DNA of 21,328 nucleotides, from the IMG/VR virus record IMGVR_UViG_3300017749_000166, positions 1-21,328 of that record. The stretch is one strand, 5' to 3'. This stretch comes from a virus. The notes under the pieces were generated by a model. It searched no databases, was not told the DNA's origin, and worked only from the letters and a program-made list of their open reading frames with translations. The position numbers and the translations under genes are program-made. Shown here one piece after another: positions 969 to 13,702 of the stretch (the stretch's first letter is position 1; each line of letters begins with the position of its first letter).

Positions 969-1973
969 ATGAAAAACACAATTTACGTACTAGAAGGTTC
1001 TTACAGAAACAAAACAATAGAGAACCAAACATTTCAATTAGTAAAATCCTACACACCACATCCTCACAAAGAAGGTGGATTCATTACAGTTAAAATAGAA
1101 GACTTGGAAAAATATCCAGGTGCTACAAAAAAACAAATCAGAATTAATTTAGAGTCTGAAAACAAATTAAGAGATAAAGCACCAGAACAAGCAAAAGCAG
1201 AATCAGATTCTGAAACTGTGGAGAGAATGAGAAAAAGATTTACAATCCTAGACAGTATGACTAAGGCTTGTAAAAAAGGTGATGTGAGAGCAATGATTGT
1301 TTCAGGACCTCCAGGTGTTGGAAAATCGCACGGTGTAGAACAAGTGTTAGATAGATATGGAGTTGTTTCTGCACTTGGTAATACTCAACCCAAATATGAA
1401 ATTGTAAAAGGTGCAATGTCTCCTATAGGCTTATATTGTAAACTTTACAATTTTTCAAATGCAGACAATGTGTTGGTATTTGATGACTGTGATAGTGTGT
1501 TGCTAGATGATTTAAGTTTGAACATATTGAAAGCGGCACTAGATTCCAAACGAACTAGAAAAATTTGTTGGAACACAGATTCCCATATGTTGAGAAGAGA
1601 AGGTGTACCAGATACTTTTGAATTTGCTGGTTCAGTAATCTTTATTACTAATATTAAATTCGATAATGTAAAGAGTAAGAAATTAAGAGATCATCTTGAA
1701 GCATTGGAAAGCAGATGTCATTACATTGATTTGACTATTGATACAATTAGAGAGAAGATTTTGAGAATTAAACAAATTGTTGCTGATGGTATGTTAAAAA
1801 GTTATGCACTACCAAAAGAAACAGAAGATGCCATTGTATCGTTTGTTGATGATAATAAGAGACAGTTAAGAGAAATAAGTCTCAGAACAGTCTTAAAAAT
1901 TGCTGATTTGGCAAAAGCATTTCCGGAAAATTGGTCGGACATGGCAAAAAGTACGGTACTGAAGCCTGTGTAA
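969..1973 (+). CDS. AAA-family ATPase
   Basis: A 334-residue cytoplasmic P-loop ATPase. Walker A is GPPGVGKS at residues 113-120, with K119 as the phosphate-binding lysine. Walker B is VLVFDDCDS with D172/D173. An asparagine-containing strand (SVIFITNIKFD) downstream fits sensor 1, and an arginine in ESRCHYIDL is a candidate arginine finger. The first 90 residues form a separate N-terminal domain rich in lysine and glutamate. The lid region (residues about 255-320) is helical with RQLREISLRTVLKIADLA. It resembles phage AAA proteins more than the gp44 clamp loader, of which I see no diagnostic features. It sits behind its own strong promoter and upstream of DNA ligase, which suggests DNA metabolism or protein remodelling; the substrate is unknown. 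Confidence 0.85.
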   Translation: MKNTIYVLEGSYRNKTIENQTFQLVKSYTPHPHKEGGFITVKIEDLEKYPGATKKQIRINLESENKLRDKAPEQAKAESDSETVERMRKRFTILDSMTKACKKGDVRAMIVSGPPGVGKSHGVEQVLDRYGVVSALGNTQPKYEIVKGAMSPIGLYCKLYNFSNADNVLVFDDCDSVLLDDLSLNILKAALDSKRTRKICWNTDSHMLRREGVPDTFEFAGSVIFITNIKFDNVKSKKLRDHLEALESRCHYIDLTIDTIREKILRIKQIVADGMLKSYALPKETEDAIVSFVDDNKRQLREISLRTVLKIADLAKAFPENWSDMAKSTVLKPV

Positions 1974-1978
1974 AAATG

Positions 1979-2007
1979 TTGACTTTGGTACCAAAAGGTA
2001 ATATAAT
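1979..2007 (+). promoter_or_regulatory. consensus sigma70 promoter for the ligase operon
   Basis: TTGACT at 1979-1984, 17-bp spacer, TATAAT at 2002-2007. The spacer overlaps a perfect 12-bp palindrome, TTTGGTACCAAA, at 1984-1995, a possible operator. The predicted +1, seven bases after the -10 box, is base 2014, the A of an ATG that opens a short frame, so the message may be leaderless. Confidence 0.85.
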
Positions 2008-2013
2008 ATGAAT

Positions 2014-2145
2014 ATGAAAAAGCAAAAAAGAAACAAATTGGAAAGAAAATTAGACGAATACAATCACACAATGGAACTGATTAGAACAGTTGTTCCTATT
2101 GCGGTGTTATGTCTACAAATATACATTTTGGTGAAACTGATATGA
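2014..2145 (+). CDS. small single-span membrane peptide upstream of ligase
   Basis: A 43-residue frame: a basic N-terminus (MKKQKRNKLERK) followed by a hydrophobic helix at residues about 24-43 (IRTVVPIAVLCLQIYILVKL). That pattern predicts a single membrane span with the N-terminus in the cytoplasm. Its stop overlaps the likely ligase ATG at 2142 in an ATGA arrangement, typical of translational coupling. It has no Shine-Dalgarno, but its ATG sits on the predicted +1 of the promoter at 1979-2007. An ATG at 2008 is in frame, but it lies upstream of the predicted transcript start. No family recognised. It may act mainly as a leader peptide that delivers ribosomes to ligase. Confidence 0.6.
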   Translation: MKKQKRNKLERKLDEYNHTMELIRTVVPIAVLCLQIYILVKLI

Positions 2146-3476
2146 GAACACAACCTCAAGAAGTAATTGCTAAACTAGAAGCAGATAACAGTAGATTAGC
2201 AAAAGAAAAAATATTGCTAGAAGCAATGAACGAAGGATTGGATGAATTCTTTGAAGGTTTAAGAATGTGTTTAGATAAGTTATACACATTTGGAGTAAAG
2301 CAAGTACCAACCAAAGATGATGTTATTTCTGCACAAGGTTGCAAATGGGAAGTGTTTAAAGAACTTGCTGAAAAACTTAATAAAAGAGAATTGACAGGTC
2401 ACGCGGCAAGAGATGCCATTAATCTTGTGATGAGTTCTGCAACCGCAGAACAATGGAATGGCTTTTACAGAAGAATTTTAATTAAAGATTTGCGTTGCGG
2501 TGTTTCAGAAAAAACTGTGAACAGTGTAGCAAAAAAGAACAAGTATGGCAAGTACATGGTGCCCGTGTTTACTTGCCAACTTGCCCACGATTCAGCAAAC
2601 CATGAAAAGAAGTTAGTGGGTGAGAAGATGTTAGAAGTAAAACTAGACGGTGTAAGAGTGGTTACTATTGTGTACCCAGATGGTAAAGTTGATATGTTTA
2701 GTAGAAACGGTAAAGAGTTTACAAACTTTGGACACATACAAGAAGAACTTTCAGCAGTTGTTAAAACAAGTCCTCCACCATATCCTGTGGTTTTAGATGG
2801 TGAAGTGATGAGTGAAAACTTTCAAGACCTAATGAAACAGGTACACAGAAAAGAATCGGTGAATGCCAAAGATGCAATATTGAATCTATTTGATTTTCTG
2901 CCATTAGAAGACTTTAAAAAAGGTGTTTGGGACAAAAGCCAAACTGTAAGAACGCAGATGTTAAAAGCATGGTACGAACAGCATAAAACCAATTTAAACG
3001 TCGTTACAGTGCTGGACCATGAAATTGTGAACTTAGACACACCTGAAGGTCAGAAGACGTACACAGAGGTGAATAAAAGGGCCGTAGAGGGAGGATATGA
3101 GGGTATTATGATTAAAGATCTCAATGCTCCTTATGAATGCAAAAGAAGTCATGCATGGTTAAAGTTAAAACCATTTATAGAAGTAAGTTTGGAAGTTAAA
3201 GCAACAGAGGAAGGAACTGGTAGAAATGTTGGTAAATTGGGTGCTTTGATTTGTGAAGGTTTAGATGATGGAAAGAAGATTAAAACAAACGTAGGATCTG
3301 GATTGAGCGATGACAACAGAGATAAGTTTTGGCAAAACAAAGACAAATTGATTGGACAGATTGTAGAAGTAAGGGCAGATGCTATTACAAAGAATCAGGA
3401 CAGTGAAGATGAATACAGTCTAAGATTTCCAAGGTTTATGAGATTTAGAGGATTCGATTTAGGAGAGAAATTGTAA
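2142..3476 (+). CDS. ATP-dependent DNA ligase (T4 gp30-like)
   Basis: Seals nicks in duplex DNA through an enzyme-adenylate, needed for lagging-strand synthesis and repair. Read as 444 residues from the ATG at 2142. An in-frame ATG at 2109 lies within the preceding small gene and lacks a ribosome-binding site, so the ATGA-coupled start is preferred. An N-terminal helical domain includes KDLRCGVSEKTVN, typical of phage ligases. Motif I is KLDG with the adenylated lysine at residue 167. Next come RNGKEF (motif Ia region), VLDGEVM (motif III), YEGIMIK (motif IV) and WLKLKP (motif V), then an OB-fold domain containing RFPRFMRFRG. All nucleotidyltransferase motifs are present and the length is near that of T4 gp30 (487 aa). 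It probably acts with the replication genes outside this window. Confidence 0.95.
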   Translation: MRTQPQEVIAKLEADNSRLAKEKILLEAMNEGLDEFFEGLRMCLDKLYTFGVKQVPTKDDVISAQGCKWEVFKELAEKLNKRELTGHAARDAINLVMSSATAEQWNGFYRRILIKDLRCGVSEKTVNSVAKKNKYGKYMVPVFTCQLAHDSANHEKKLVGEKMLEVKLDGVRVVTIVYPDGKVDMFSRNGKEFTNFGHIQEELSAVVKTSPPPYPVVLDGEVMSENFQDLMKQVHRKESVNAKDAILNLFDFLPLEDFKKGVWDKSQTVRTQMLKAWYEQHKTNLNVVTVLDHEIVNLDTPEGQKTYTEVNKRAVEGGYEGIMIKDLNAPYECKRSHAWLKLKPFIEVSLEVKATEEGTGRNVGKLGALICEGLDDGKKIKTNVGSGLSDDNRDKFWQNKDKLIGQIVEVRADAITKNQDSEDEYSLRFPRFMRFRGFDLGEKL

Positions 3477-3688
3477 TGGAAAAGAAATATGAACATGGAT
3501 ACGAAGAAGCAAAGACTTCCGGCGGTGCAGTTTATGAACTTGGTGTCAAGGCATCAAAAAATGCCAAAGCAATTAGAAGGATCGCAGAACCACTTATGAA
3601 GAAACACTGGCATGACAAGGTTACAAATTTACATAGAATTTATAGAGTAGCAGAGTATTTGCACCAAAGACAAAAAAGAGGAAAATGA
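3476..3688 (+). CDS. small basic protein, unknown function
   Basis: A 70-residue, lysine/arginine-rich, likely all-helical protein. It starts one base inside the ligase stop (TAATG) with AGGAGAG about 8 nt upstream, so translation follows ligase directly. Two helical halves can be seen, GAVYELGVKASKNAKAIRR and a histidine-rich segment with KKHWHDKV and LHRIYRVAEYLHQRQ. The strong positive charge would allow nucleic-acid binding, but no DNA-binding motif is recognisable. Its stop overlaps the next ATG as ATGA. Unknown function. Confidence 0.75.
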   Translation: MEKKYEHGYEEAKTSGGAVYELGVKASKNAKAIRRIAEPLMKKHWHDKVTNLHRIYRVAEYLHQRQKRGK

Positions 3689-4068
3689 CACAAGATAAAG
3701 CACAAAAAGAAATAGAAGAAAATATTAATCATGTGATTAAAACAAGGATTCAACCTGGAGTTGATGCACATGGTGGTGTTGTGAAACTAGAAAATTTTGA
3801 CATGGAAACAGGAACAGTGACCATGTTGATGAGTGGAGCATGTTCTGGTTGTGCCAGTAGCGCCGCAACACTCAAACAAGGCATTGAAAATATGTTGAAA
3901 CATTACATACCTGAAGTTAAATCTGTACAAGGAGTTGATGATCCTAACTTCAACGATCCGTATTTTAAAAAAGAGCCTAACCCATTGGCACCAACTATGT
4001 CATATGAGGAAATGTTGGATGAATTAGAACAAGTTGAAACAAATGACAAAAAAGAGGAAAATGACTGA
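3685..4068 (+). CDS. NifU C-terminal (Nfu-type) iron-sulfur cluster protein
   Basis: Nfu-type proteins hold and pass [4Fe-4S] clusters to apo-enzymes, with two subunits sharing the cluster through a CxxC motif each. This 127-residue protein has the family core at residues 9-85: the GVDAHGGVVKL segment, then SGACSGCASS with C53 and C56, then LKQGIENMLK and PEVKSVQGVDD. It lacks the N-terminal domain of NfuA and the scaffold domain of full NifU. After the core there is an acidic tail of about 40 residues. It overlaps the upstream stop (ATGA) and has GAGGAAA as ribosome-binding site. A phage copy would support maturation of host or phage Fe-S enzymes during infection. The next gene encodes another cysteine-rich mini-protein, and an A-type carrier lies at 13743. 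Confidence 0.9.
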   Translation: MTQDKAQKEIEENINHVIKTRIQPGVDAHGGVVKLENFDMETGTVTMLMSGACSGCASSAATLKQGIENMLKHYIPEVKSVQGVDDPNFNDPYFKKEPNPLAPTMSYEEMLDELEQVETNDKKEEND

Positions 4069-4219
4069 TAACAAACAAGAAGTTCAACCAAAGAAAAAAA
4101 CTTGCCCTTGTGGAAGGTCTCCTATTGCATTGTGCATTGGTTGGCATTCTTTGTCTGAAAGTGAATACAAAGCAAAATTAAAGGCTTGGAACGAGCATCA
4201 TAACAAAAAGGAGAAATAA
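4061..4219 (+). CDS. 52-aa CDGSH-like Cys/His protein, possible [2Fe-2S] or zinc binder
   Basis: Start taken at 4061, which has GAGGAAA directly upstream and overlaps the Nfu-type gene by 8 nt; an upstream in-frame ATG at 4034 lies deep in that gene. The protein has a lysine-rich N-terminus, then C15-P-C17-G-R-S20, then C25-I-G27-W-H29-S, then a charged helix. CDGSH (mitoNEET-type) proteins bind [2Fe-2S] with three Cys and one His in C-x-C-x8-C-x3-H, with Ser after the second Cys and Gly before the His. Here the pattern is C-x-C-x7-C-x3-H with the same Ser and Gly, one residue shorter and without the family proline or aspartate. The similarity plus the Nfu neighbour suggest a cluster-binding mini-protein. 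A small zinc knuckle is the main alternative. Confidence 0.6.
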   Translation: MTDNKQEVQPKKKTCPCGRSPIALCIGWHSLSESEYKAKLKAWNEHHNKKEK

Positions 4220-4458
4220 TGGATATATGGGTGAATCCGAAGATTGAACAAAACTTGAGAAAAGAAGGATGGAATATTCCTGTGAAACCAGAAACAGGTC
4301 CAATATATTACAACGACGTTGAAGTTGGATTTAGCGATAATTTTATAGGATTAAGAATAAGAGATCAACATATAGACGCAATTAAATTTTGTGTTAACAA
4401 TGAGGATAGGTTAAATTTATGTTTATGGAATATACCGGAAACAGTGAAGGTTACGTGA
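4219..4458 (+). CDS. hypothetical protein, 79 aa
   Basis: A soluble 79-residue protein starting at an ATG that shares one base with the previous stop and has AGGAG six bases upstream, so the start is firm. It begins MDIWVNPKIEQNLRKEG and contains alternating short strands (GPIYYNDVEVGF, FIGLRIRDQH) that suggest a small beta-rich fold. No catalytic or metal-binding motif is visible and I recognise no family. Its 3' end overlaps the next gene by 4 nt if that gene uses the GTG at 4455. Confidence 0.7.
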   Translation: MDIWVNPKIEQNLRKEGWNIPVKPETGPIYYNDVEVGFSDNFIGLRIRDQHIDAIKFCVNNEDRLNLCLWNIPETVKVT

Positions 4459-4640
4459 ATCGAAAAAAAAATATAGGATATGAAGTGATTAGACAAAAGC
4501 AATGGGACGGCCCTCCATACAGTTATTCAGTTAAAGTAAATGGAAAATTAAAACGTATGAGCGGATTTGATGAAGAACACATTAAGAACCAATTGTATCC
4601 TAGGAAAGCCAGTATGATAAGAAAGGTAAAAGATGTCTAA
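4455..4640 (+). CDS. hypothetical protein, 61 aa, probable GTG start
   Basis: The most likely start is GTG at 4455: it overlaps the upstream TGA as GTGA and has GAAGG four to five bases upstream. An ATG at 4419 would extend the protein by 12 residues and overlap the previous gene by 40 nt, which is out of character for this region. The product is basic and begins VNRKKNIGYEVIRQKQ, followed by a WDGPPYSYSVKVNGKLKRMSG stretch that looks like a small beta hairpin, then a helical basic tail. No family recognised. Confidence 0.65.
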   Translation: MNRKKNIGYEVIRQKQWDGPPYSYSVKVNGKLKRMSGFDEEHIKNQLYPRKASMIRKVKDV

Positions 4641-4800
4641 AAAGAAGTATGATTCGTATGGACACATGGTGCAATTAGGCAAAGTTTCATCATTGATGCA
4701 GGCATCTGTGGCAATCACTAGACTTATTTTAAAAGAAAAGAAAGCATTGAAAAAATTTGAACAACAAAAATTACTACAAGATATTAAAAAAGATGACTAA
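4633..4800 (+). CDS. small basic protein, 55 aa
   Basis: A 55-residue frame starting at an ATG 8 nt before the upstream stop, with AAAGG about 6 nt away. It begins MSKKKYDSYGHMVQLGKVSS and ends in a lysine-rich amphipathic helix (KEKKALKKFEQQKLLQDIKK). Its stop overlaps the following ATG (ATGACTAA). It sits exactly in an otherwise unexplained 150-nt stretch of a string of overlapping genes, which supports it as a real gene. No family recognised. The basic helical nature allows but does not prove nucleic-acid or membrane-surface binding. Confidence 0.65.
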   Translation: MSKKKYDSYGHMVQLGKVSSLMQASVAITRLILKEKKALKKFEQQKLLQDIKKDD

Positions 4801-5113
4801 AGATATAGAACCTATAAGAGAGAAACTGGACGATAAAATTAAGAAGTTGAACAGTACTAGAGTATTCAAAAAAGTTACTCCACTGCACGACTTGAGTTGG
4901 TATGTGAAATGGGTATCAGTTGTGTTTGTGATTATTGGTTGGATGTTAACATCTATAAACTGGTTTCCATACAGCATTATATTTCAAATGACTGGAGTTG
5001 CTGGTTGGTTATGGGTAGGATTTTTATGGCACGATAGAGCCCTTATTGTGTTGAACAGTATTGGGGTGGCATTATTAGGTGCGGGTTTGTTAAAATATTT
5101 GGCAGGAATGTAA
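4793..5113 (+). CDS. three-helix membrane protein, unknown function
   Basis: A 106-residue protein from the ATG at 4793, which overlaps the preceding stop by 8 nt. An in-frame ATG at 4757 lies inside the preceding gene. A charged N-terminal helix (residues 1-35) is followed by three hydrophobic segments at about 38-56, 60-79 and 83-103, with tryptophans at the ends of the first two (WYVKWVSVVF, GWLWVGFLWHDR). This is an integral inner-membrane protein. It is one of four membrane proteins encoded close together here. It could alter the host membrane during infection, but lacks the features of a recognised holin or transporter. Confidence 0.75.
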   Translation: MTKDIEPIREKLDDKIKKLNSTRVFKKVTPLHDLSWYVKWVSVVFVIIGWMLTSINWFPYSIIFQMTGVAGWLWVGFLWHDRALIVLNSIGVALLGAGLLKYLAGM

Positions 5114-5304
5114 TGAGCAAAGAAGTAGACATAATAAAGAAAGCAATGGCAGACAACAAGAAAGTTTTCTTGAAAGAAATGAAACAATTAAACAATAAAC
5201 TTGATGAGTTGGACAAGCGTCTTACCAAACATATAGATTTTATAGAAAGGGTGTATGGGCCATTATCAACAAGTATCGACAAGTTCAAAAAATTTTTTAG
5301 GTAG
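5113..5304 (+). CDS. short coiled-coil protein, 63 aa
   Basis: A 63-residue charged protein whose ATG overlaps the upstream stop by one base. Residues about 5-45 show heptad-like spacing (IIKKAMADNKKVFLKEM, then LNNKLDELDKRL), predicting a coiled coil. The C-terminus is basic and aromatic (KFKKFF). It lies between two membrane protein genes, so it may associate with them at the membrane, which is inference from position only. No family recognised. Confidence 0.7.
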   Translation: MSKEVDIIKKAMADNKKVFLKEMKQLNNKLDELDKRLTKHIDFIERVYGPLSTSIDKFKKFFR

Positions 5305-5308
5305 CAGT

Positions 5309-5728
5309 ATGATTAATATACAAGATTGTGGATGGTGCAACAAATTAAGGAATTGGGCGATAGATAGTGCCACGATTCTGTTTGACGATAATCATAATGA
5401 TTTGAGAGCATTGCCTAAAACTGTGAGATTACAGATATTAGTTGTGTTAAGTTTTGTGTGGAGCACGGTGTTTACACTTTATTTCTTTTCAATGTCAACT
5501 ATGGTTTGGGGTTGGTCCGGATTGGTGATTGGACATTTAGGAATTATTTTTGCCATGTATGCCACATTCAAACAATTTCATAATGCACGAAAAAAATTTA
5601 TTAATTATAAATTTGATGGTTATCATTCCGCAGGTAGAACAAGAGGATTCATGATTGCCAGAGATAAAAAAGGCAATCCATACAAAATGTATTTTGACCC
5701 TAATGACCCAGGAGGAGAACATGAGTAA
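5309..5728 (+). CDS. two-helix membrane protein with cytoplasmic tail
   Basis: A 139-residue protein from the ATG at 5309, five bases after the preceding stop and preceded by AGG. An in-frame ATG at 5255 would overlap the previous gene by 50 nt and is unlikely. The N-terminus has a CGWC pair at residues 7-10. Two hydrophobic segments follow at about 41-60 and 67-87, forming a hairpin. The last 50 residues are soluble, basic and glycine-rich (GYHSAGRTRGFMIARDKKGNPYKMYFD). The CxxC could bind metal or form a disulfide, but it is isolated. Its 3' end overlaps the next gene by 8 nt. Function unknown. Confidence 0.75.
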   Translation: MINIQDCGWCNKLRNWAIDSATILFDDNHNDLRALPKTVRLQILVVLSFVWSTVFTLYFFSMSTMVWGWSGLVIGHLGIIFAMYATFKQFHNARKKFINYKFDGYHSAGRTRGFMIARDKKGNPYKMYFDPNDPGGEHE

Positions 5729-5903
5729 ATGGATAGTTGTCATAATGTTTCTTGTGGTTATAGCAATGTTCAATAAAGGTATAGAAGTTTTAGGACCAAG
5801 CAACACAAACAGAGATGTGTTGTATGAAGGACCTGTTAAGTCAACAGAAGACAGATGGAAAGCGGCATTCGAATGGCAAAAGAAACGTAAAGGAAATGAA
5901 TAA
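5721..5903 (+). CDS. small N-terminally anchored membrane protein, 60 aa
   Basis: The ATG at 5721 has the best ribosome-binding site in the window (GGAGGAGAAC directly upstream) and overlaps the previous stop by 8 nt; upstream in-frame starts are inside that gene. Residues about 4-18 (WIVVIMFLVVIAMF) form a single hydrophobic segment that looks like an uncleaved anchor. The remaining 42 residues are polar and end in a basic patch (WQKKRKGNE). Function unknown. It stands immediately before the flavodoxin-like oxidoreductase gene. Confidence 0.75.
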   Translation: MSKWIVVIMFLVVIAMFNKGIEVLGPSNTNRDVLYEGPVKSTEDRWKAAFEWQKKRKGNE

Positions 5904-6545
5904 ATGAAGATTTGTATAATATATGGACATCACAATACTAAAAGCAGTTTTAATGCGGCAATCAGAGATACTTTTATTGAAGAAGCCACTTTGTGCGGAC
6001 ACGAAATAGATTTAATTAATCTGTTTGACGAGGAAGTGCAATTACCGTTTTACAATTCGGATGTCAATCCACCACCACAGATTGTATTAGATTATAGAAA
6101 AAGATTAGAAAACAGTGACGTGATGTTCCTTATAGGATCATGCCACAATTTAAGGATGCCAACCATATTAGAAAATTGGGTCGACTGGGTATTGCACCCT
6201 AAATGGTTTTTCAGTTATAGAGCACTGGTGCCTGGCAGTAAGTATTTCAAGAACTATGGATATCCTGTGCCTGGAGCAATGAATGGCAAATTAGGTTTAA
6301 TATCCATCACATATGGTGGACCTATGGTCACTTACTTTAATTTCAGTCTGTTTGATAATATTCCTTACAGAAGAATAAAGAAAGCAGTTTTTAATTTAGG
6401 TGGCATGGTCACCAAGTATATAAGATTTTATTCTGTATTGCCTGGCATGGAGAAAAAAGAATTTGATAATCATATGGATAGAGTAAGAAAACTTGCAAGA
6501 AGTTTAAATCCAGACAAAAAGAAAAAGATTAGTTGGTGGGGATAA
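5904..6545 (+). CDS. flavodoxin-fold NAD(P)H oxidoreductase (quinone reductase type)
   Basis: A 213-residue protein resembling the Flavodoxin_2 group (MdaB, KefF, NQO-like), which binds FMN or FAD and moves electrons from NAD(P)H to quinones or other acceptors. The N-terminus, MKICIIYGHHNTKSSFNAAI, matches the first strand and phosphate loop of these flavoproteins. The segment SDVMFLIGSCHNLRMPTILENWVDWVL corresponds to the second flavin-contacting loop and the conserved NW-D-V-L helix. LGLISITYGGP fits the third loop. Length is normal for the family. The ATG directly follows the previous stop, with AAGGAAA upstream. A phage-borne oxidoreductase next to Fe-S genes suggests redox support of the host cell; the substrate cannot be read from sequence. 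Confidence 0.8.
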   Translation: MKICIIYGHHNTKSSFNAAIRDTFIEEATLCGHEIDLINLFDEEVQLPFYNSDVNPPPQIVLDYRKRLENSDVMFLIGSCHNLRMPTILENWVDWVLHPKWFFSYRALVPGSKYFKNYGYPVPGAMNGKLGLISITYGGPMVTYFNFSLFDNIPYRRIKKAVFNLGGMVTKYIRFYSVLPGMEKKEFDNHMDRVRKLARSLNPDKKKKISWWG

Positions 6546-6715
6546 TGACTGAACAAGAATATCTTGAAACATTTGTTAAAGAACTGCATAACGAGATTGA
6601 ACTAGACAAGCAAAAAGCATTCATGCACAAAAAAATGTATGGGACTTGGACTTCAGAAGAGATTATCAGTGCTATGAAAAACTTATGCCCAGAGGCGTGG
6701 GAAAACTATGATTAA
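6545..6715 (+). CDS. hypothetical acidic protein, 56 aa
   Basis: Begins at the ATG sharing one base with the oxidoreductase stop, with GGTGGGG upstream; an ATG 12 nt earlier is less favoured. It is an acidic, probably helical protein (MTEQEYLETFVKELHNEIELDKQ) ending CPEAWENYD. The stop overlaps the next gene by 8 nt. No family recognised. Confidence 0.7.
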   Translation: MTEQEYLETFVKELHNEIELDKQKAFMHKKMYGTWTSEEIISAMKNLCPEAWENYD

Positions 6716-7409
6716 AAAAGTATCCAGCAGAAAGAAGAAAGAACTTGTAAAAGCAATTAAAAATCCTAACAGATATTTTAAATTAGATTTTGGACGTTAT
6801 GGTGGTGAAGTTGCTATGGGTGAAATCACAAAAGCACAATACGATTATTGGTCAGAAAAAGGTCATGATGAATTCAGTGATTACATGAGTCAATTAGGAT
6901 TTGATATGCTGGTTGCCAATAAAGGTATTCCTAAAGAAGCACAGTTTGATAGAGAATTTTTTGAGTACGAAGATATTTGTCATATGTCAGGACCTGAACT
7001 AGCAAGTAGCCAGACAATGACCATAACGGAATGCGATAAAGATGGTCATTCAATGCAGGATGATGAAGGTAATTTTTTACAAGATAAAGTGATAGATGTA
7101 GATGATTTTGAAAAGCACAAGATAGAAACTTTGTGTTTGGGAGATCACGATTCAGGATCAGAAAGTTGTAAAGACAAATATTTCATGTTTGGTCAGTATT
7201 TTAATAAAGGTACATGGTACACAGAAGAAATTATTACCACAGATCACAGAGGATTGGATCTTAAAAAAATAAAAATCAATTATGAAAATGCAGATGGTTT
7301 CAAAGTATTTTACGATGTTCAGTATGATGGCTATGATTATTATTTGCAAGAAGACTCAACAGGCAAGAGCTCTGCTTTTTATGTGGTAGCGGGAGAAAAT
7401 TTACTATGA
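6708..7409 (+). CDS. hypothetical soluble protein, 233 aa
   Basis: A soluble protein with a short basic N-terminus (MIKKVSSRKKKELVKAIK) and an acidic remainder rich in aspartate, tyrosine and phenylalanine. The middle part has a CDKDGHSMQDDEGNF segment that looks calcium-loop-like but does not match an EF-hand. The C-terminal 90 residues alternate in a beta-like pattern (MFGQYFNKGTWYTEEIITTD, KVFYDVQYDGYDYYL). No signal peptide or membrane helix. It starts 8 nt inside the previous gene and ends in an ATGA overlap with a tiny downstream frame. I cannot assign a function. Confidence 0.75.
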   Translation: MIKKVSSRKKKELVKAIKNPNRYFKLDFGRYGGEVAMGEITKAQYDYWSEKGHDEFSDYMSQLGFDMLVANKGIPKEAQFDREFFEYEDICHMSGPELASSQTMTITECDKDGHSMQDDEGNFLQDKVIDVDDFEKHKIETLCLGDHDSGSESCKDKYFMFGQYFNKGTWYTEEIITTDHRGLDLKKIKINYENADGFKVFYDVQYDGYDYYLQEDSTGKSSAFYVVAGENLL

Positions 7410-7483
7410 TAGAGTTGTTGGTGTTTGCTACAATATTCACGTTGATAGTTTTACTAACTGGAGGTCCTGGTAACAGTGCCTAA
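7406..7483 (+). CDS. 25-aa membrane peptide (tentative)
   Basis: A 26-codon frame starting in an ATGA overlap with the previous stop, with GGGAG about 11 nt upstream. It is almost entirely hydrophobic (MIELLVFATIFTLIVLLTG) and ends with a short polar tail, so it predicts a single membrane-spanning peptide. It fills the only space between two genes, and the GTG of the next gene lies inside it, behind GGAGGT at its 3' end. It may be a real micro-protein or only a translational bridge. Confidence 0.45.
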   Translation: MIELLVFATIFTLIVLLTGGPGNSA

Positions 7484-7718
7484 ATCATACAAAAAATACA
7501 CAATAGATATCAAAGTAGGTGATAAAATCCAAGTGGGAAGATTTAGAAACGTTACCACAATGGTTAAAAATATAACAATAGACGAACATGGACAGCCAAT
7601 TATTCACACCAGCAAAGGAAAGAAAAAATTGTTTAGTTGCAGAATTCACAAACTTACACCCGGAACGAAAACTCCAAAACAAATACTTTTAGAAGTAAAG
7701 AATCATAAAAAAACTTGA
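7476..7718 (+). CDS. small basic protein with beta-barrel-like N-terminus, GTG start
   Basis: An 80-residue protein starting with GTG at 7476, supported by GGAGGT at 7461-7466 about 9 nt upstream. No ATG is available nearby. The N-terminal part, KYTIDIKVGDKIQVGRFRNVTTMVKNI, reads like a small SH3-like beta barrel with the VGDKIQVGRF turn common in such folds, and the tail is lysine-rich. Nucleic-acid or ribosome binding is plausible for a basic barrel but unproven. It is the last gene before an intergenic promoter region. Confidence 0.7.
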   Translation: MPKSYKKYTIDIKVGDKIQVGRFRNVTTMVKNITIDEHGQPIIHTSKGKKKLFSCRIHKLTPGTKTPKQILLEVKNHKKT

Positions 7719-7752
7719 TTTTCCTTTCAAGAGACTATATACCATTTATAGT
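7715..7752 (+). promoter_or_regulatory. weak promoter candidate upstream of the 7756 gene
   Basis: TTGATT at 7715-7720 overlaps the previous stop codon. TATATA at 7736-7741 gives a short 15-bp spacer, and TATAGT at 7747-7752 lies just before the ATG. The downstream gene has no Shine-Dalgarno (TATAGTACC precedes its ATG), so a promoter close to the start codon is expected, but neither -10 candidate is ideal. Confidence 0.35.
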
Positions 7753-7755
7753 ACC

Positions 7756-8598
7756 ATGGAAAAAACAGATATACAAAAGCCAACAATTCAGCAAAGAATA
7801 GATGTAAGGGTAACAGAAATACTGGAACCTGTGGAGATGTGGCTTGACCGTCATGCATTTAATCCAGACAAATTCAATCCCAAAACACTTAAATTGGTTG
7901 ATCTTTTCAAACGTGAAAAAGTAGGTGGTGTCCATGCACGTAAAATTCAAGAAAAGTATGAAGACATATATCAAGAATACAAATTGCTATTGAACCTGCG
8001 TAAAAAGAATATTAAGTTCGAAGAATTAGATGAGGAAGGTACAAACGATTCAGATGAAAGACAATTACTAGAAGCATATGAAACTGTAAATGACGCAACA
8101 ATACTTAAAGGTATAGAAGCATATGATAATATTTTCGAAGCCTGCGATTACATGATTACAATAGCCAATGCAAATCGTAAGCCGAGAAAGAGAAAAGAAA
8201 AATCGCCTGAGAAGTTGGTAGCAAAATTAAAATACAAAATCGAGGATACAAAATTGGACATAAAATCAATCGATCCAACTGAAATTATCTATGCTGAATC
8301 ACTTTGGGTTTACAATACAAAAACTAGGAAATTAGGACATTATAAAGCCAAGGTGCTTGATCCACGTGGAATGAATAGACCGGGCACAGGATTAATGGTT
8401 AAAGGCACAACAATTACAGGCTTTGACGAAGAAACCAGCATACAAAAAACGTTGCGTAAACCTGAACAGCAGTTAAAAGACTTTGCAGATAGCGGCCCTA
8501 TCAAGGTGATTGGGTTTTACGATGGCATTAAAACCATGCCTATTAAACTGAATGGACGTATTAACAATGAAGTTCTATTGTTAAGAGCAGTTAGATAA
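7756..8598 (+). CDS. conserved T4-like marine phage protein, possibly structural
   Basis: A 280-residue soluble protein. The N-terminal 150 residues are helical and charged (EILEPVEMWLDRHAFNPDKF, then KIQEKYEDIYQEYKLLLNL, then DNIFEACDYMITIAN). A basic linker (RKPRKRKEKSPEKLVAKLKYK) follows. The C-terminal domain contains AESLWVYNTKTRKLGHYKA, then KGTTITGFDEETSIQKTLRKPEQQL, and ends NGRINNEVLLLRAVR. From memory, proteins with this WVYNTK...RKPEQ...GRIN...LLR order recur in T4-like cyanophages as conserved proteins of unknown role; I have not verified this. It precedes the fibre-like gene at 8607, consistent with a virion or assembly role, which is inference. Confidence 0.75.
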   Translation: MEKTDIQKPTIQQRIDVRVTEILEPVEMWLDRHAFNPDKFNPKTLKLVDLFKREKVGGVHARKIQEKYEDIYQEYKLLLNLRKKNIKFEELDEEGTNDSDERQLLEAYETVNDATILKGIEAYDNIFEACDYMITIANANRKPRKRKEKSPEKLVAKLKYKIEDTKLDIKSIDPTEIIYAESLWVYNTKTRKLGHYKAKVLDPRGMNRPGTGLMVKGTTITGFDEETSIQKTLRKPEQQLKDFADSGPIKVIGFYDGIKTMPIKLNGRINNEVLLLRAVR

Positions 8599-8601
8599 AT
8601 A
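8594..8601 (+). promoter_or_regulatory. T4-like late promoter motif
   Basis: GATAAATA, matching the NATAAATA form of the T4 late promoter (TATAAATA). It contains the stop codon of the upstream gene. By T4 geometry the +1 falls five bases after the motif plus one, at 8607, which is the A of the next ATG. No Shine-Dalgarno is present, so the transcript would be leaderless. Confidence 0.55.
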
Positions 8602-8606
8602 ACTGT

Positions 8607-9488
8607 ATGAACGACTCAAATGACATCTTACGAATAAAAGACGGGCTTATTAGACTAGGAAATGCTGTAGAATCTCTACAAGCACAAGACAGTTCACAGG
8701 GCGATTTTGTTGGTTTAGACAAAAGTATAGATTTTAAACAAGTTGGAAGAACTACTATTGCAGGCAAAGGATTGCAATGGAGCGGTGATGGTGCAACTAA
8801 AGTATTAAATTTCCAAACAAATCCATCAAGAATTTTTTCAAGTGAACCAATTGACTTGATGAAAGACAGAGAATACATGATTAACAATGCTCCTGTTCTT
8901 TCAGAAAATGCACTAGGGCCAGGTGTAAGAACATCTAATCTTAGACAGGTTGGAATATTAAATGGTTTAACAGTTAATGGCAATATTAACATTGACTCGT
9001 TTGTGTTCTACGACAGTGGAATGAGCAGACTAGGAATTGGAACTGAGGCTATGAATGGTCAATTATCAGTTGGTTCTAATTCAGCAGAATTTGTAGTTGA
9101 ACCTGGAGAACGCACAATAGGTATAGGTGCGTACACAGCCAGCGAATTAAGATTACAAACAGACAACACAGACAGAATTACAATATCAGCAGAAGGCAAT
9201 ATCAAATTAGGCAACCAAGGTGCAAGTGACACCAAAATTAATATGTATGGTAAATTAGGAGTTGGCATAACTCAAATAGATCCAGAGGTGCAAGTAGATG
9301 TAGCAGGTGCAATAAAATTTGCAGGCAGAAAGTTTTTAGTGTCTCAGGATATACCAAACAGCGGTTCGTACTCACAGGGAGACACAATATGGAATTCAAA
9401 TCCAACACCAGGCAACGTAATGGGTTGGGTATGTGTTAAATCAGGGACTCCAGGAGTATGGAAATCATTCGGAAGTATTTCAAACTAA
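8607..9488 (+). CDS. tail-fibre-like virion protein
   Basis: A 293-residue protein rich in Gly, Asn, Ser and Thr with beta-repeat composition. The first 25 residues form a short helix (DILRIKDGLIRLGNAVESLQ). The middle has fibre-type repeats such as NGLTVNGNINIDSF and RLGIGTEAMNGQLSVGSN, then ISAEGNIKLGN and YGKLGVGI, recalling the short beta segments of phage fibre shafts. The last 40 residues (SGSYSQGDTIWNSNPTPG, then GWVCVKSGTPGVWKSFG) form a terminal domain often seen at the end of fibre and collar proteins. It has a late promoter motif upstream and lies near other fibre genes. The exact place in the particle is unknown. Confidence 0.75.
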   Translation: MNDSNDILRIKDGLIRLGNAVESLQAQDSSQGDFVGLDKSIDFKQVGRTTIAGKGLQWSGDGATKVLNFQTNPSRIFSSEPIDLMKDREYMINNAPVLSENALGPGVRTSNLRQVGILNGLTVNGNINIDSFVFYDSGMSRLGIGTEAMNGQLSVGSNSAEFVVEPGERTIGIGAYTASELRLQTDNTDRITISAEGNIKLGNQGASDTKINMYGKLGVGITQIDPEVQVDVAGAIKFAGRKFLVSQDIPNSGSYSQGDTIWNSNPTPGNVMGWVCVKSGTPGVWKSFGSISN

Positions 9489-9784
9489 ACATAAAAAAAC
9501 AAGTTGGCTTATGGGCGTGGATTGGACGTGTGGCTCCACTATCTGCTCTGCTGGTTTTGTGTTTGGTGCTTTTTTATGAGGTCAACACATGGCTTGAAGC
9601 CGCACTAATATTCATTGCATTCTCATTCAGTATCACAGCCTTTGTATGGTGGTGGTGGGTAATTTATGCAGTACGTGATATTTTTACAATGTTAAATTCA
9701 GCGAATAAAAAATTTGAGCAAGTTCTTTTTGAAATTAAAAACATCAAAATGGAAACAAACAAATTGAAAAAACGTAAAAAATAA
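9458..9784 (+). CDS. two-helix membrane protein, possible lysis or membrane function
   Basis: A 108-residue protein overlapping the fibre-like gene by 31 nt. The ATG at 9458 has AGGAG only one base away, which is too close, but no other ATG or GTG near by gives the full hydrophobic region, so the exact start is unsure. Two hydrophobic segments lie at about 25-41 and 46-70, the second with a tryptophan run (AFVWWWWVIYAV). The last 35 residues are basic and coiled-coil-like (KKFEQVLFEIKNIKMETNKLKKRKK). Hairpin topology with a basic cytoplasmic tail is compatible with a holin, but no lysin gene is adjacent, so holin is only one possibility. Confidence 0.65.
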   Translation: MEIIRKYFKLNIKKQVGLWAWIGRVAPLSALLVLCLVLFYEVNTWLEAALIFIAFSFSITAFVWWWWVIYAVRDIFTMLNSANKKFEQVLFEIKNIKMETNKLKKRKK

Positions 9785-9790
9785 ATCTTT

Positions 9791-10393
9791 ATGCTAGTAA
9801 TTGGAAACGGCGAAAGTCGTAAAGGTGTGAACATTGATGATTTGCCAATCGAAAAAGTTGGCTGTAATGCAATCATTAGAGATTACACTGTGCACCATCT
9901 GGTGTGCTGTGATAAAAAGATGGTTGTAGAATCATTAGACAATAAACGTATTTCAAATCAAAACATTTACACAAGAAGTGATTGGAAAAATTTATTCCCA
10001 GGAGTAAAAAATGTTCCTGAATTGTGGTACGAATCAGATGAAAGAATTGATCAACCATGGCATTGGGGCAGTGGCGATTATGCTGTGTTGTTGGCAAGTG
10101 AAATATCTAAGTCAAAGCAGTTGCATCTAATAGGATTTGATTTGTTTGGCTCAGAAGGCAAGGTTAATAACCTGTACAAAGATACCAAAAACTATGTCAA
10201 AGCAGACAGTCATCAAGTAGATCCATCGTATTGGATCTATCATCTAGCCAAAATATTTGAACATTTCACAGATAAAGAATACATAGTGTATTCAGATTAC
10301 GGTATTAAGACTCCAGAATCATGGAAAAGTTTGCAAAATGTCCGTTTGGACAGTTTGGATAATTTAAAAACAAATGTAGAGAATAACCATTGA
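9791..10393 (+). CDS. GNGESR-motif protein, sugar- or nucleotide-binding-like
   Basis: A 200-residue soluble protein. It starts MLVIGNGESRKG, a first strand and tight turn with G5-N-G-E-S-R10. Turns of this kind (GNGxS) begin the Rossmann-like folds of GT42 sialyltransferases and of DUF115/MptE-type proteins. Further strands are VGCNAIIRDY, HHLVCCDKKMVVES, and LHLIGFDLFGSEGKVNNLY, the last with an aspartate that could face the active site. The context is a QueD-like enzyme and a DxD glycosyltransferase, so a role in making or attaching a sugar or nucleotide modification is reasonable but inferred. No Shine-Dalgarno is visible. AATAAATC at 9780-9787 is a near-match to the late motif. Confidence 0.6.
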   Translation: MLVIGNGESRKGVNIDDLPIEKVGCNAIIRDYTVHHLVCCDKKMVVESLDNKRISNQNIYTRSDWKNLFPGVKNVPELWYESDERIDQPWHWGSGDYAVLLASEISKSKQLHLIGFDLFGSEGKVNNLYKDTKNYVKADSHQVDPSYWIYHLAKIFEHFTDKEYIVYSDYGIKTPESWKSLQNVRLDSLDNLKTNVENNH

Positions 10394-10418
10394 CATTTTG
10401 TCTAAATAAAGTTATTAT
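10390..10418 (+). promoter_or_regulatory. sigma70 promoter for the QueD-like gene
   Basis: Perfect TTGACA at 10390-10395, 17-bp spacer, TATTAT at 10413-10418. The -35 overlaps the TGA stop of the previous gene. GACA (10392-10395) and TGTC (10399-10402) form a small dyad. The predicted +1, seven bases after the -10 box, is 10425, the A of the ATG, so the transcript may have no leader. Confidence 0.75.
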
Positions 10419-10424
10419 AAAAAG

Positions 10425-10871
10425 ATGATATATTACAGCACAAAAACATATGGAAATGACAGAGGATTTAGTTGTGCATTTAGACAGCCTAACGCAAGTC
10501 ACAGTCATTGTTCACTAATACATGGTTACAGTTTAGGATTTAAATTTACATTTACATCAGAAAAACTGGATGATAAAAACTGGGTTTATGACTTTGGAAA
10601 TTGTAAATGGATTAAAAAGTTTCTAGAAGACAAATTTGACCACACACTTGCACTAGACAAATCAGATCCGCATTTTGATTATCTTTTTGATATGAAAAAC
10701 AAAGGACTTGCTAATGTCGTTGTAATGGATGGTGTTGGTTGTGAAAAATTTGCAGAACACGTTTATAAATTTGTTGCTCCTGAAGTGGAAAAACAAACAG
10801 ATCAAAGAGTAAGCCTTAAAAGTGTAGAAGTGTTTGAACATGGAGCCAACAGTGCTATATATTCTGCATGA
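10425..10871 (+). CDS. queD: 6-pyruvoyl-tetrahydropterin / 6-carboxy-tetrahydropterin synthase family protein
   Basis: The family converts dihydroneopterin triphosphate in tetrahydropterin or, as QueD, preQ0/queuosine synthesis, using zinc held by three histidines. This 148-residue protein (full family length) has the characteristic HCSLIHGYSLGFKF (residues 28-41), YDFGNCKWIKKFL, FDHTLAL (DH pair), and SVEVFEHGANSAIY near the end. The usual zinc residues differ: the AAH position reads CAF (F19), and HGH reads HGY (Y35). Histidines at 26, 28 and 33 remain, so the metal site may be rearranged or partial. I recall a proteobacterial subgroup with similar SHC...HGYA motifs. No other queuosine gene is in the window. 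It overlaps the glycosyltransferase gene by 4 nt. Confidence 0.8.
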   Translation: MIYYSTKTYGNDRGFSCAFRQPNASHSHCSLIHGYSLGFKFTFTSEKLDDKNWVYDFGNCKWIKKFLEDKFDHTLALDKSDPHFDYLFDMKNKGLANVVVMDGVGCEKFAEHVYKFVAPEVEKQTDQRVSLKSVEVFEHGANSAIYSA

Positions 10872-11575
10872 AGAAATATGTTATTTGTTTAAAACATGGT
10901 AAGAAGTATGGCCCAGAGTATGTGAATACTCTTGCAAAAATGGTCAAAAGAAATTGCACACTTGACTATGAATTTGTTTGCTACACAGAAGATCCAACAG
11001 GAATAGACCTCAACCTAGTAACCATAAGACCTTTGCCCACAGCATACAGAATAGGTGGATGGTGGTTCAAGCCTTTACTTTTTAATCCTGATTCCAATGA
11101 ACGTGGTACGATGTTGTACATAGATTTAGATGTAATAATTTTTAGAAACATTGACAAACTGTTTACACATCTAAAAGATCAATTCCTTGTGCTACGTGAT
11201 TTCAACAGATGGCGTCAAAAAGGTTGGAAGAAATTTAATTCATCTGTGGTGCGTTGGAACACCGGTCAACATCCGCAAATATACAAGAACTTTGTTGCAG
11301 ACACAATGAACATTTCAAGAAGATTTCACGGAGACCAAGATTGGTTGTTTGCACAGGTTAATAAAGACTTTCAATATTTTCCTGATGAATGGATTCAAAG
11401 TTACAAATGGGAAATGAGAGGTATGCCTCCATTAACCAGAGATGCGGCTGGACATAGAAACTTTGTGTCTCCAGGCGTGCCAAAAATAAAACCTGAAACA
11501 TCAATTGCTGTATTTCATGGAGATCCTAATCCTAAAGTTTGTTGTGATCCTTGGTGCAAAGAAAACTGGCGTTGA
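10868..11575 (+). CDS. glycosyltransferase with DxD motif (GT-A fold, GT8-like)
   Basis: A 235-residue cytoplasmic enzyme expected to transfer a sugar from a nucleotide-sugar. It starts MKKYVICLKHGKKYGPEYVNTL, the first strand and helix of a GT-A fold. YIDLDVIIF carries the metal-binding D86-x-D88. NSSVVRWNTGQ is an acceptor-loop region, then GDQDWL at 155-160, then a C-terminal FHGDPNP, where His would bind the diphosphate as in GT8 enzymes. The order and length fit a GT8-like enzyme. It is translated together with the QueD-like gene (ATGA overlap). The acceptor could be phage DNA, virion protein or host surface glycan; I cannot tell. Confidence 0.8.
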   Translation: MKKYVICLKHGKKYGPEYVNTLAKMVKRNCTLDYEFVCYTEDPTGIDLNLVTIRPLPTAYRIGGWWFKPLLFNPDSNERGTMLYIDLDVIIFRNIDKLFTHLKDQFLVLRDFNRWRQKGWKKFNSSVVRWNTGQHPQIYKNFVADTMNISRRFHGDQDWLFAQVNKDFQYFPDEWIQSYKWEMRGMPPLTRDAAGHRNFVSPGVPKIKPETSIAVFHGDPNPKVCCDPWCKENWR

Positions 11576-11600
11576 CGCACACCGAAATATTTGCTATAAT
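11572..11600 (+). promoter_or_regulatory. strong sigma70 promoter with extended -10
   Basis: TTGACG at 11572-11577, 17-bp spacer, TATAAT at 11595-11600 preceded by TGC (extended -10). The -35 overlaps the TGA stop of the glycosyltransferase gene. The predicted +1 is 11606-11607, at the ATG of the UV endonuclease, which has no Shine-Dalgarno. A leaderless transcript is likely. Confidence 0.8.
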
Positions 11601-11605
11601 AAAAT

Positions 11606-12649
11606 ATGATTAGACGTATTGGATTTTGCTGTCAATGGTTTCACCATGATAGAACTCTTAAAAAGAAACAATTAGAAGAAATAGAAAGACCAATGAACAC
11701 ACGTTCAACTACTGTGCGTTGGTTAAATGAACACAAAGACGAAGCAGAAGCAAAACTAGATTTTGTATTCAAACACAACATACAAGGTATTAAAAATTTA
11801 ATCCTTAAAGTTTCAACACTGCCTAAAAGCAGACGTATGTGTAGAATTTCATCTCCCATATTACCGGTGGCAACACAGGCGGACTGGAGATACTATTGGA
11901 CCAAACCCGAGATTATAAAATATTGTGAAAAGCATTTTGCTGAAGCAGGTGACTTGGCAAGATTACACGATGTAAAAGTAAGTTTTCATCCAGGACAATT
12001 CACAGTGTTGGCAAGTGAAACTCCAGACATTGTGGATCGTAGCATAGATGAATTTGAATATCATGTGAACATGGCACGTTGGATGGGATTTGGTAAATCA
12101 TTTCAAGATGGTTGCAAAATTAATGTACACATCTCTGGTAGACAAGGTCCAGAAGGCATTATAAAAGCACTGCCTAGACTGTCGCCTGAAGCAAGAAACT
12201 TGATCACCATTGAGAATGATGAAATGAGTTGGGGACTTGATGCAAGTCTAGAACTAGAAAAACATTGTGCCTTGGTGTTGGACATACATCATCATTGGGT
12301 GCGTACTGGAGAATATCTACAAGCCACAGACGACAGGGTAAAAAGAGTTGTGGACTCATGGCGTGGTGTAAGACCTACCATGCACTATTCTTATTCAAGA
12401 GACGAATGGTTGACTCCTGCTTATCCAGATGGAAAAATGCATGAAGGTTTTCATGACATGGAAACACTTTTATCTAAAGGTTGTAAGAAACAAAAATTGA
12501 GAGCACACAGCGAACGATTACCAAATCGTGCAGTGAATGAATGGGCATTGAGTTTTCTACCGCAACTAGACATACAAGTTGAAGCAAAAATGAAGAATCA
12601 AGCGGCAGAGCAACTCCATAACCAGGCTTTAGAACTAGGATTAGTTTAA
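11606..12649 (+). CDS. uvsE: UV damage endonuclease (UVDE/UvsE family)
   Basis: Cuts DNA 5' to pyrimidine dimers and other lesions, starting repair without glycosylase activity. The 347-residue protein has the family's TIM-barrel signatures in order: IGFCCQWFHHDR at the N-terminus, RISSPILP (from residue 80), SFHPGQFTVLAS (from residue 126), INVHISG, TIENDEMSWG (E203 to E206 area), LVLDIHHHWV, and KLRAHSERLPNRAVNEW near the C-terminus. The His/Asp/Glu residues of these motifs form the metal-ion site. Length is usual for the family. It is driven by its own promoter with the ATG at the predicted +1. A sunlit aquatic phage would gain from such repair. Followed by superoxide dismutase, another damage-related gene. 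Confidence 0.92.
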   Translation: MIRRIGFCCQWFHHDRTLKKKQLEEIERPMNTRSTTVRWLNEHKDEAEAKLDFVFKHNIQGIKNLILKVSTLPKSRRMCRISSPILPVATQADWRYYWTKPEIIKYCEKHFAEAGDLARLHDVKVSFHPGQFTVLASETPDIVDRSIDEFEYHVNMARWMGFGKSFQDGCKINVHISGRQGPEGIIKALPRLSPEARNLITIENDEMSWGLDASLELEKHCALVLDIHHHWVRTGEYLQATDDRVKRVVDSWRGVRPTMHYSYSRDEWLTPAYPDGKMHEGFHDMETLLSKGCKKQKLRAHSERLPNRAVNEWALSFLPQLDIQVEAKMKNQAAEQLHNQALELGLV

Positions 12650-12650
12650 A

Positions 12651-12658
12651 AATAAATA
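12651..12658 (+). promoter_or_regulatory. T4-like late promoter motif
   Basis: AATAAATA, matching NATAAATA, just after the UV endonuclease stop. T4 geometry puts +1 at 12664, one base before the superoxide dismutase ATG at 12665. No Shine-Dalgarno is present. Confidence 0.5.
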
Positions 12659-13401: not shown

Positions 13402-13689
13402 TTACAATTCGTTAATTTTTTTTAAACTCGAGGCGTCCATGTTGAAGATTTTTCTTTGGCGGGCGCCTTGTTCTTGAGCAAACTTTTTAGGATTACACCT
13501 ATTGCACACGTGCTTATAGTAATTGCTCACCCTTTTTTCTTGGATTTGTCCTTTGTGCCTGGTGAACTGATTGTCACAAACATCACACAAAAACAAATAC
13601 AAAGTCCTAGTCCTTTTACAGACGTGTTTTTTGCCCAATTTACTGGTTCTAGTGGAGTGTGATACTTCTGTAAGTTCTTTCAAAAACAT
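13402..13689 (-). CDS. zinc-ribbon-like small protein on the minus strand
   Basis: The only minus-strand gene of the window. The 95-residue basic protein has C35-x2-C38 (FLCDVCDN) and C62-x2-C65 (HVCNRCNP), 23 residues apart, which form a zinc ribbon or treble-clef type site. The N-terminal part (HSTRTSKLGKKHVCKRTRT) is very basic, and so is the tail (KKFAQEQGARQRKIF). Small HNH-type nucleases carry similar C4 sites, but the HNH histidine/asparagine residues are not visible. It may bind DNA or RNA. It has no Shine-Dalgarno; TGTAAATA on its strand (13695-13702) sits 5 nt before the ATG. The open frame, clean zinc motif and fit between neighbours support it over the + strand frames. Confidence 0.75.
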   Translation of the reverse strand: MFLKELTEVSHSTRTSKLGKKHVCKRTRTLYLFLCDVCDNQFTRHKGQIQEKRVSNYYKHVCNRCNPKKFAQEQGARQRKIFNMDASSLKKINEL

Positions 13690-13694: not shown

Positions 13695-13702
13695 TATTTA
13701 CA
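13695..13702 (-). promoter_or_regulatory. late-promoter-like motif on the minus strand
   Basis: Read on the minus strand the sequence is TGTAAATA, one mismatch from NATAAATA, with five bases between it and the ATG of the zinc-ribbon gene. The geometry equals that of the + strand late motifs, so a leaderless late transcript is plausible. Confidence 0.35.

Follow-up and report, generated by a model that had tools for sequence, protein, structure and literature searches.

Does a phage gene need a leader, or can its message begin with the start codon itself? The question is raised by the IMG/VR virus record IMGVR_UViG_3300017749_000166, a linear stretch of 21,328 bp (the window; positions are those of the whole stretch). 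Three sigma70-like promoters with 17-nucleotide (nt) spacers stand on its plus strand directly before start codons: TTGACT..TATAAT at 1979..2007, TTGACA..TATTAT at 10390..10418 and TTGACG..TATAAT at 11572..11600. These promoters, and the ATGs at 2014, 10425 and 11606, had been placed correctly by the first-pass annotation, which proposed leaderless messages for a small open reading frame (ORF) with a DNA ligase, for a QueD-like enzyme and for a UV endonuclease. The -10 box ends 6 nt before the start codon at 2014, 6 nt before that at 10425 and 5 nt before that at 11606. Overall, our analysis suggests that in this marine phage group a sizeable minority of promoters very probably start transcription at or near the A of the start codon.

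Promoters of the window

The three promoters and a fourth at 896..924, on the same strand, are the top four (11 of 12 matches) of 80 promoter-like sites identified in positions 1-20000. Only this top-scoring class stands out, because the total of 80 does not exceed that of shuffled sequences (75.0 +/- 8.4). The -35 box at 10390 overlaps the TGA stop codon of the upstream ORF (10391-10393), and the -35 box at 11572 overlaps that of its own upstream ORF (11573-11575). Inspection of the single sites by eye agreed with the earlier statement that the three genes have no Shine-Dalgarno sequence, with one doubtful exception: an in-frame ATG at 2008 directly follows the -10 box of the first promoter and has AAGG 9 nt upstream.

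The leadered genes with which these three had been contrasted were described only in part correctly. The promoter at 896..924, the contrast case, has a leader that is kept in relatives and precedes the gene for an AAA protein (969..1973, plus strand; phrog_1250), but the Shine-Dalgarno sequence ascribed to this gene is only a weak AAAGGG by eye. The leadered DUF7717 gene (56..433, plus strand) does have GAGG before its ATG by eye. Its promoter, called at 1-28, has to be moved: the -35 box is cut by the window edge and lies further upstream in relatives (L167, L164), and the -10 box is the TATAAT at 16..21 of the plus strand. In the early leaders of 56, 969 and ligase homologues, AGGCAA/AGGCAC repeats run up to the ATG.

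Conservation of the promoter at uvdE

Relatives were taken from viral contigs as the best 80 of 461 for UvdE, of 264 for QueD and of at least 598 for the ligase. The UvdE-type UV endonuclease gene (uvdE; 11606..12649, plus strand; PF03851, phrog_8420) is predicted leaderless, a label that for genes of the window is based on DNA sequence, promoter geometry and relatives. Upstream of uvdE, the arrangement TTGAC-17-TATAAT-(5 or 6)-ATG recurs despite differing DNA further upstream. A scored promoter of at least 10/12 was found 5-6 nt before the ATG in all 30 orthologues of at least 70% identity (13/13 at 85% or more and 17/17 at 70-85%, all at 5 or 6 nt). The background for such a promoter is 42 of 6290 ATGs (0.67%) in the window and the stretches of G001, a related record of 148 kb. 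A leaderless uvdE message is well supported as a prediction by these comparisons.

Distances from sigma70-like promoters to start codons

The class-wide sample comprised 245 related phage stretches (3.33 Mb, partly overlapping). The promoter counts exclude the contigs of bacterial genomes (L239-L251) and the pieces of the window itself (L001-L002), and a counted start is an ATG ORF of at least 40 codons. The distance from the -10 box to the ATG, which the first-pass annotation had named as a check, proved two-peaked in this sample, unlike that of random positions. The 562 distinct TTGAC..-10 sites mostly lie 4-9 or 20-59 nt before an ATG, with a dip between. Counted to the first ATG, 15 sites fall below 4 nt (17 at random), 117 at 4-8 nt (17), 27 at 9-19 nt (39), 203 at 20-59 nt (107) and 103 at 60-149 nt (162), and 97 have none (219). 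A Shine-Dalgarno core was identified at 1 of the 117 sites at 4-8 nt compared with 104 of the 203 at 20-59 nt (Fisher 2e-25).

Grouping of the genes into 102 protein families revealed members at 4-9 nt in 40 families, at 10-19 nt in 11 and at 20-59 nt in 67. Of the families represented at 4-9 nt, 27 lack any member at 20-59 nt. The 40 families at 4-9 nt include doubtful ones, for example single-member families and the site of the ligase and small ORF. Within G001, 14 sigma70-like sites lie at 4-7 nt, none at 8-19 nt and 18 at 20-59 nt.

A strict pattern, TTGACNN{16,18}TATAATN{4,10}ATG, gave 59 matches in 20 picked related records against 1 for the reversed control; the matches occur in 19 of the 20 records and always on one strand per record. 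This pattern takes no gene test; of its 10 matches in G001, 8 begin an ORF that is 40 or more codons long, and of the remaining two, one falls on an ATG within the queD leader. Analysis of the start codon 5-6 nt after strict promoters revealed a strong preference for ATG (57), compared with GTG (2) and TTG (3). These results bear on the chance proximity of an AT-rich motif and an ATG, which an AT-rich genome (35.7% GC in G001) would favour and with which the total of promoter-like matches, not above that of shuffles, is compatible. Against the 59 strict matches with 1 in the control, and 30/30 at uvdE with a background of 0.67%, chance is extremely improbable and is refuted for the class, although single sites could still be due to it.

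T4-late-like promoters

The usual spacing to the start of transcription is 6 nt for sigma70 promoters and 5 nt for T4 late promoters; the latter have the sequence TATAAATA and are recognised by gp55/gp33/gp45. A second promoter class was identified in the related stretches, with sites of the form ATAAATA or GATAAATA that carry the TATAAATA-like octamer of a T4-type late promoter. Among 537 ATAAATA sites, 77 lie exactly 5 nt before an ATG, compared with 5 at 4 nt, 14 at 6 nt and 15 at 7 nt, and reversed-motif controls gave 2/657 and 9/1071 at 5 nt. Members at 4-7 nt were found in 31 of 112 late-like families. The Shine-Dalgarno core is present at 2/111 ATAAATA sites at 4-7 nt, 13/59 at 8-17 nt and 118/193 at 18-59 nt. 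The codon 5 nt after GATAAATA is ATG in 33 cases, GTG in one and TTG in none; ATAAATA or GATAAATA occurs upstream of gene starts where about zero would be expected from internal ATGs. The two classes peak at 6 nt and 5 nt, respectively, as expected from their usual start points. As far as promoter geometry predicts it, the leaderless design is shared across the phage group and extends to this second promoter class.

Two genes of the window, and possibly a third, would belong here. On the plus strand, ATAAATA at 8595..8601 stands 5 nt ahead of ATG 8607, which opens a predicted leaderless late-type gene for a 293-aa protein (8607..9488); in its family, all 41 distinct counted ATAAATA sites lie 5-7 nt from the ATG. 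Also on the plus strand, ATAAATA at 12652..12658 stands 6 nt ahead of ATG 12665 of a predicted leaderless late-type gene for an Fe/Mn superoxide dismutase (12665..13216; PF02777, PF00081), and 23/23 distinct counted sites in this family are at 5-7 nt. A possible leaderless late-type gene on the minus strand encodes a 95-aa Cys-rich ORF (13402..13689); GTAAATA, one base off ATAAATA, is found at 13695..13701 of that strand, 5 nt ahead of ATG 13689, and a protein family that resembles this ORF by eye has 8/9 sites at 5 nt. The 5-aminolevulinate synthase gene of G001 (L258:13463-14653) likewise has ATAAATA 5 nt upstream of its start.

The distances in the two classes also bear on genome compaction as the sole explanation, in which promoters would simply be fitted into short gaps and translation would come mainly from longer read-through transcripts, either independent of a Shine-Dalgarno sequence or coupled, with little contribution from the nearby -10 box. 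In favour of this, the genes lie close together and mostly point in one direction, an upstream stop codon is overlapped by two of the three -35 boxes, and only 9 terminator-like sites were identified, with 10.1 expected by chance. Compaction alone, however, predicts leaders of 8-19 nt as well, yet those are depleted; the peak is narrow and shifts between the two promoter classes as start points do, and the spacing at uvdE is held though the sequence upstream of the promoter differs. Compaction alone is unlikely to account for the pattern.

Comparison with named phages and possible host

In the cultured Pelagibacter phage HTVC008M, 9 of 45 ATAAATA sites lie at 5 nt and none at 0-4 or 6 nt. All nine (ATGs at 6280, 7562, 19456, 31132, 49760, 75559 and 142360 on the plus strand and at 16007 and 18916 on the minus strand) are annotated gene starts, chosen independently by the annotators, and the genes include those for tape measure, DNA end protector, baseplate, CsgF and a transcriptional regulator. 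The annotation of this phage also includes a late sigma factor and a putative late promoter transcription factor. The ATAAATA core is common to T4 and the phages studied here, but T4 has no ATAAATA at 0-11 nt before a counted ATG and 28 at 20-59 nt, in contrast to the sharp 5-nt peak of the present group. P-SSM2 has two late-like sites at 5 nt and two sigma70-like sites at 6 nt. No late-like site at 5 nt was found in Atu_ph07 (400 of 490 kb) or 121Q, and their sigma70-like sites within 4-9 nt number one (4 nt) and two (5 and 8 nt), respectively. T4, 121Q and Atu_ph07 have no leaderless-type peak.

The bare pattern ATAAATA-N5-ATG, taken without an ORF test, was compared with its reversed control: HTVC008M 9/1, G001 6/1, Atu_ph07 5/2, P-SSM2 3/3, T4 2/0, 121Q 1/2, NCTB 0/2, and Phosso and Vibrio phage 2.275 0/0 each. 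The two occurrences in T4 open no 40-codon ORF.

A nucleotide search of the window against named phages gave no close match. The 5-aminolevulinate synthase of G001 (TIGR01821, 543.6 bits with a cut-off of 338.55) and its DNA polymerase, nearest to that of Sinorhizobium phage Phosso (49.7%), hint that the host may be an alphaproteobacterium. A search for the PF07068 major capsid protein in G001 found nothing, and the controls were likewise silent. A 78% uvdE relative lies on a contig of the unclassified metagenome-assembled genome TMED46.

Observations against leaderless starts, and the choice of start codon

Several observations weigh against the leaderless reading. The uvdE promoter was found in only 5/20 relatives at 60-70% identity and 1/10 below 60%, that is 6/30 under 70%, although some relatives in this range may represent other genes. 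Judged by UvdE, the nearest named phage is NCTB (43%), and there uvdE begins on the final base of the preceding gene. HTVC008M has no peak among its sigma70-like sites, and of the 10 ATAAATA sites that it has within 4-7 nt, 2 are accompanied by a Shine-Dalgarno core. A phmmer search with the late sigma factor of HTVC008M gave no match in G001, which is possibly a genome fragment; since no relative of this factor was found there, the label late-like refers to the motif alone. The loci of the class-wide sample are related and overlapping and were picked for uvdE, queD or ligase relatives, so that the instances are not independent, and the counts extend to ATG starts only. The 5' ends and the route of translation are themselves deduced from the sequence.

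The proposal of leaderless messages fares differently at the three genes of the window: it is well supported at uvdE, narrowly shared at queD and ambiguous at the ligase operon. The gene for the QueD-like 6-pyruvoyl-tetrahydropterin synthase (10425..10871, plus strand; phrog_2389, PF01242) is predicted leaderless, with its promoter at 6 nt, but among relatives only the two closest, L011 and L019, share this layout; many other queD loci carry a leader with a Shine-Dalgarno sequence. In L098, L102 and L234 the counted ATG at 8-9 nt sits in the queD leader element and is not a likely start. By eye, three of the 59 strict matches (G001, G004, G008) also look like ATGs of queD leaders.

At the first promoter, the small ORF (2008..2145, plus strand; MNMKKQ..., or MKKQ... 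from 2014) begins with the in-frame ATG 2008 that abuts the promoter. It had no match in Pfam and PHROG scans and overlaps, by ATGA, the start of the ATP-dependent DNA ligase gene (2142..3476, plus strand; phrog_114 and Pfam DNA_ligase_A_M in a scan from 2109), whose translation is probably coupled to it. A promoter-like match (10 or 11 of 12) lies 4-7 nt ahead of an in-frame ATG in every one of the 16 relatives: a strict TTGAC..TATAAT at 6 nt in four (L162, which matches the window, L083, L172 and L022), TTGAC with a weaker -10 box at 6-7 nt in seven, and TATAAT at 4-7 nt with a weak -35 box in five. The site is nevertheless ambiguous, because in 9 of the 16 there is, in addition, an in-frame ATG preceded by AGGAG or GGAG at 5-10 nt; in seven of those nine this ATG is inside the promoter spacer.

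Such starts, like the AAGG ahead of ATG 2008 and the likely false starts in L098, L102 and L234, agree with the view that the true starts lie elsewhere, upstream or downstream, and have a Shine-Dalgarno sequence. Of the three noted genes, only the small ORF could at best fit this view. UvdE homologues align from residue 1-4 among the matches listed, except for those cut by a contig end, and the nine HTVC008M sites coincide with the starts of its annotators. As a general explanation, misplaced starts are very unlikely.

A possible mechanism, gene timing and ribosomal protein bS21

On the preferred reading of leaderless starts, a host-type RNA polymerase would start at the A of the ATG or within a base or two of it. 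The resulting mRNA would be leaderless, beginning with 5'-AUG, and ribosomes would initiate at this terminal AUG without a Shine-Dalgarno sequence. In the window, uvdE (11606) and queD (10425) would be expressed in this way from sigma70-like promoters, and the genes at 8607 and 12665 (superoxide dismutase) from T4-late-like promoters. Transcripts from other promoters of the same phages would carry leaders of about 14-50 nt, and roughly half of these leaders contain a Shine-Dalgarno sequence. A leaderless promoter fits into about 35 nt, which may be of use in a gene-dense genome. Read-through RNA from upstream would be poorly translated, so that the output of the gene would follow its own promoter.

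The first-pass annotation had further suggested that leaderless translation could set gene timing during infection. This idea is unsupported, and timing by leaderlessness was rejected, as the sigma70-like and late-like classes each mix leaderless and leadered genes. In its specific form, leaderless starts would be the class that stays on as initiation factors change in infection. Leaderless mRNAs can depend less on initiation factors, according to a review (PMC9031893), and many of these phages encode the ribosomal protein bS21. On the other side, besides the mixed promoter classes, initiation factor IF3 was found in none of the 20 pattern-searched records (G001-G020), which are mostly fragments, and Atu_ph07 has bS21 without a leaderless peak. 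We regard this form of the timing idea as quite unlikely.

bS21 is encoded in 13 of the 25 records tested (10 of G001-G020, G023, Atu_ph07 and Phosso), and also in HTVC008M (91228-91431) and Vibrio phage 2.275; it was not found in T4, P-SSM2, 121Q or NCTB. In G001, the bS21 gene (91596-91739) is preceded by a sigma70-like promoter and a leader, together with AGGAGG. A role of phage bS21 in favouring messages of the phage late in infection has been proposed (PMC9723584). A link to the leaderless genes would be a guess: phage bS21, positioned near the anti-Shine-Dalgarno sequence, might shift host ribosomes to 5'-terminal AUGs, giving two purposeful start systems, so that leaderless phage genes would be expressed from their own promoters only and read-through RNA would stay silent. 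We hold this extended scheme to be rather improbable. As a sufficient cause bS21 was rejected, with Atu_ph07 having bS21 but no peak, and Phosso and Vibrio phage 2.275 having bS21 without leaderless-type pattern matches. Phage IF3 was also rejected as a cause, being present in only 3 of the 25 records: Atu_ph07 (256-501), Phosso (382560-382817) and G022 (231596-231844).

Elements of the queD leaders and promoter spacers

An H-type pseudoknot is conserved directly before the Shine-Dalgarno sequence of queD at L007:8169-8224 and in 42 other leaders. The alignment comprised 43 of 47 leaders with the core motif (L120, L128, L141 and L150 were left out). Both the GAGG/CCTC stem and the loop-tail helix covary; the covariation score is 0.408, compared with at most 0.135 when slid, and two-sided cells number 66, compared with 18.3 in shuffles. 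The element resembles preQ1-I riboswitches, although no credible Rfam match was obtained in the loci searched: the window, L007 and L003 gave nothing at E up to 0.1, and on the L007 queD leader there were just two matches, both far under their cut-offs. No such pseudoknot element was seen by eye at the predicted leaderless queD of the window.

Analysis of the spacers of the promoters at 1979-2007, 896-924 and 11572-11600 and their relatives revealed TTGGT in 41/203 leadered sites (background 3.3%) and ACCAA in 17/131 leaderless sites (background 2.3%), these being related sites that are not independent. At the 1979 site, TTTGGTACCAAA forms a palindrome. The spacer motifs TTGGT/ACCAA are a possible operator.

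Relation to known leaderless genes and implications

To our knowledge, leaderless messages of phages have mostly been described as single cases. Leaderless and leadered gene classes have reportedly been found in the Thermus phages phiYS40 and P23-45, which belong to other phage groups with other hosts.

The arrangement described here resembles that of TA-led bacterial genes (Zheng et al. 2011, PMC3160421), in which a TANNNT signal resembling a -10 box lies about 10-12 bp before the start codon and a Shine-Dalgarno sequence is absent. Those genes belong to bacterial and archaeal genomes, whereas the present ones belong to a phage group and include a T4-late-like box. Leaderless transcripts of Sinorhizobium meliloti, which like the possible host here is an alphaproteobacterium, have their 5' end at the first base of the AUG and all start with AUG (PMC3616915); there, 171 start sites of host genes were mapped experimentally, whereas here phage genes are predicted from sequence alone. 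Leaderless genes, including single leaderless phage genes, are already known (PMC3160421 and PMC9031893), and the leaderless mRNA of lambda (PMC3160421; cI is named in PMC9031893) is a phage example. It concerns a single regulatory gene, in contrast to the genome-wide class indicated here. That phage transcripts are often leaderless is said in passing in PMC5312081. Leaderless translation in E. coli is not blocked by kasugamycin (PMC5230787). A literature search covering titles and the beginnings of abstracts, with most subscription papers and preprints outside its coverage, returned, among the entries listed, no description of leaderless genes in T4-like, Pelagibacter or marine phages.

Overall, the results point to a whole phage group that would use leaderless starts for DNA repair, metabolic and structural genes. 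Two promoter classes would be involved, apparently serving early-type and late-type genes alike, and for late-type genes this use would extend to the cultured HTVC008M. Start annotation is affected, as gene callers based on the Shine-Dalgarno sequence may miss such genes. The role of phage-encoded bS21 becomes testable, and these phages offer a system for testing how a phage uses two modes of start in one infection.

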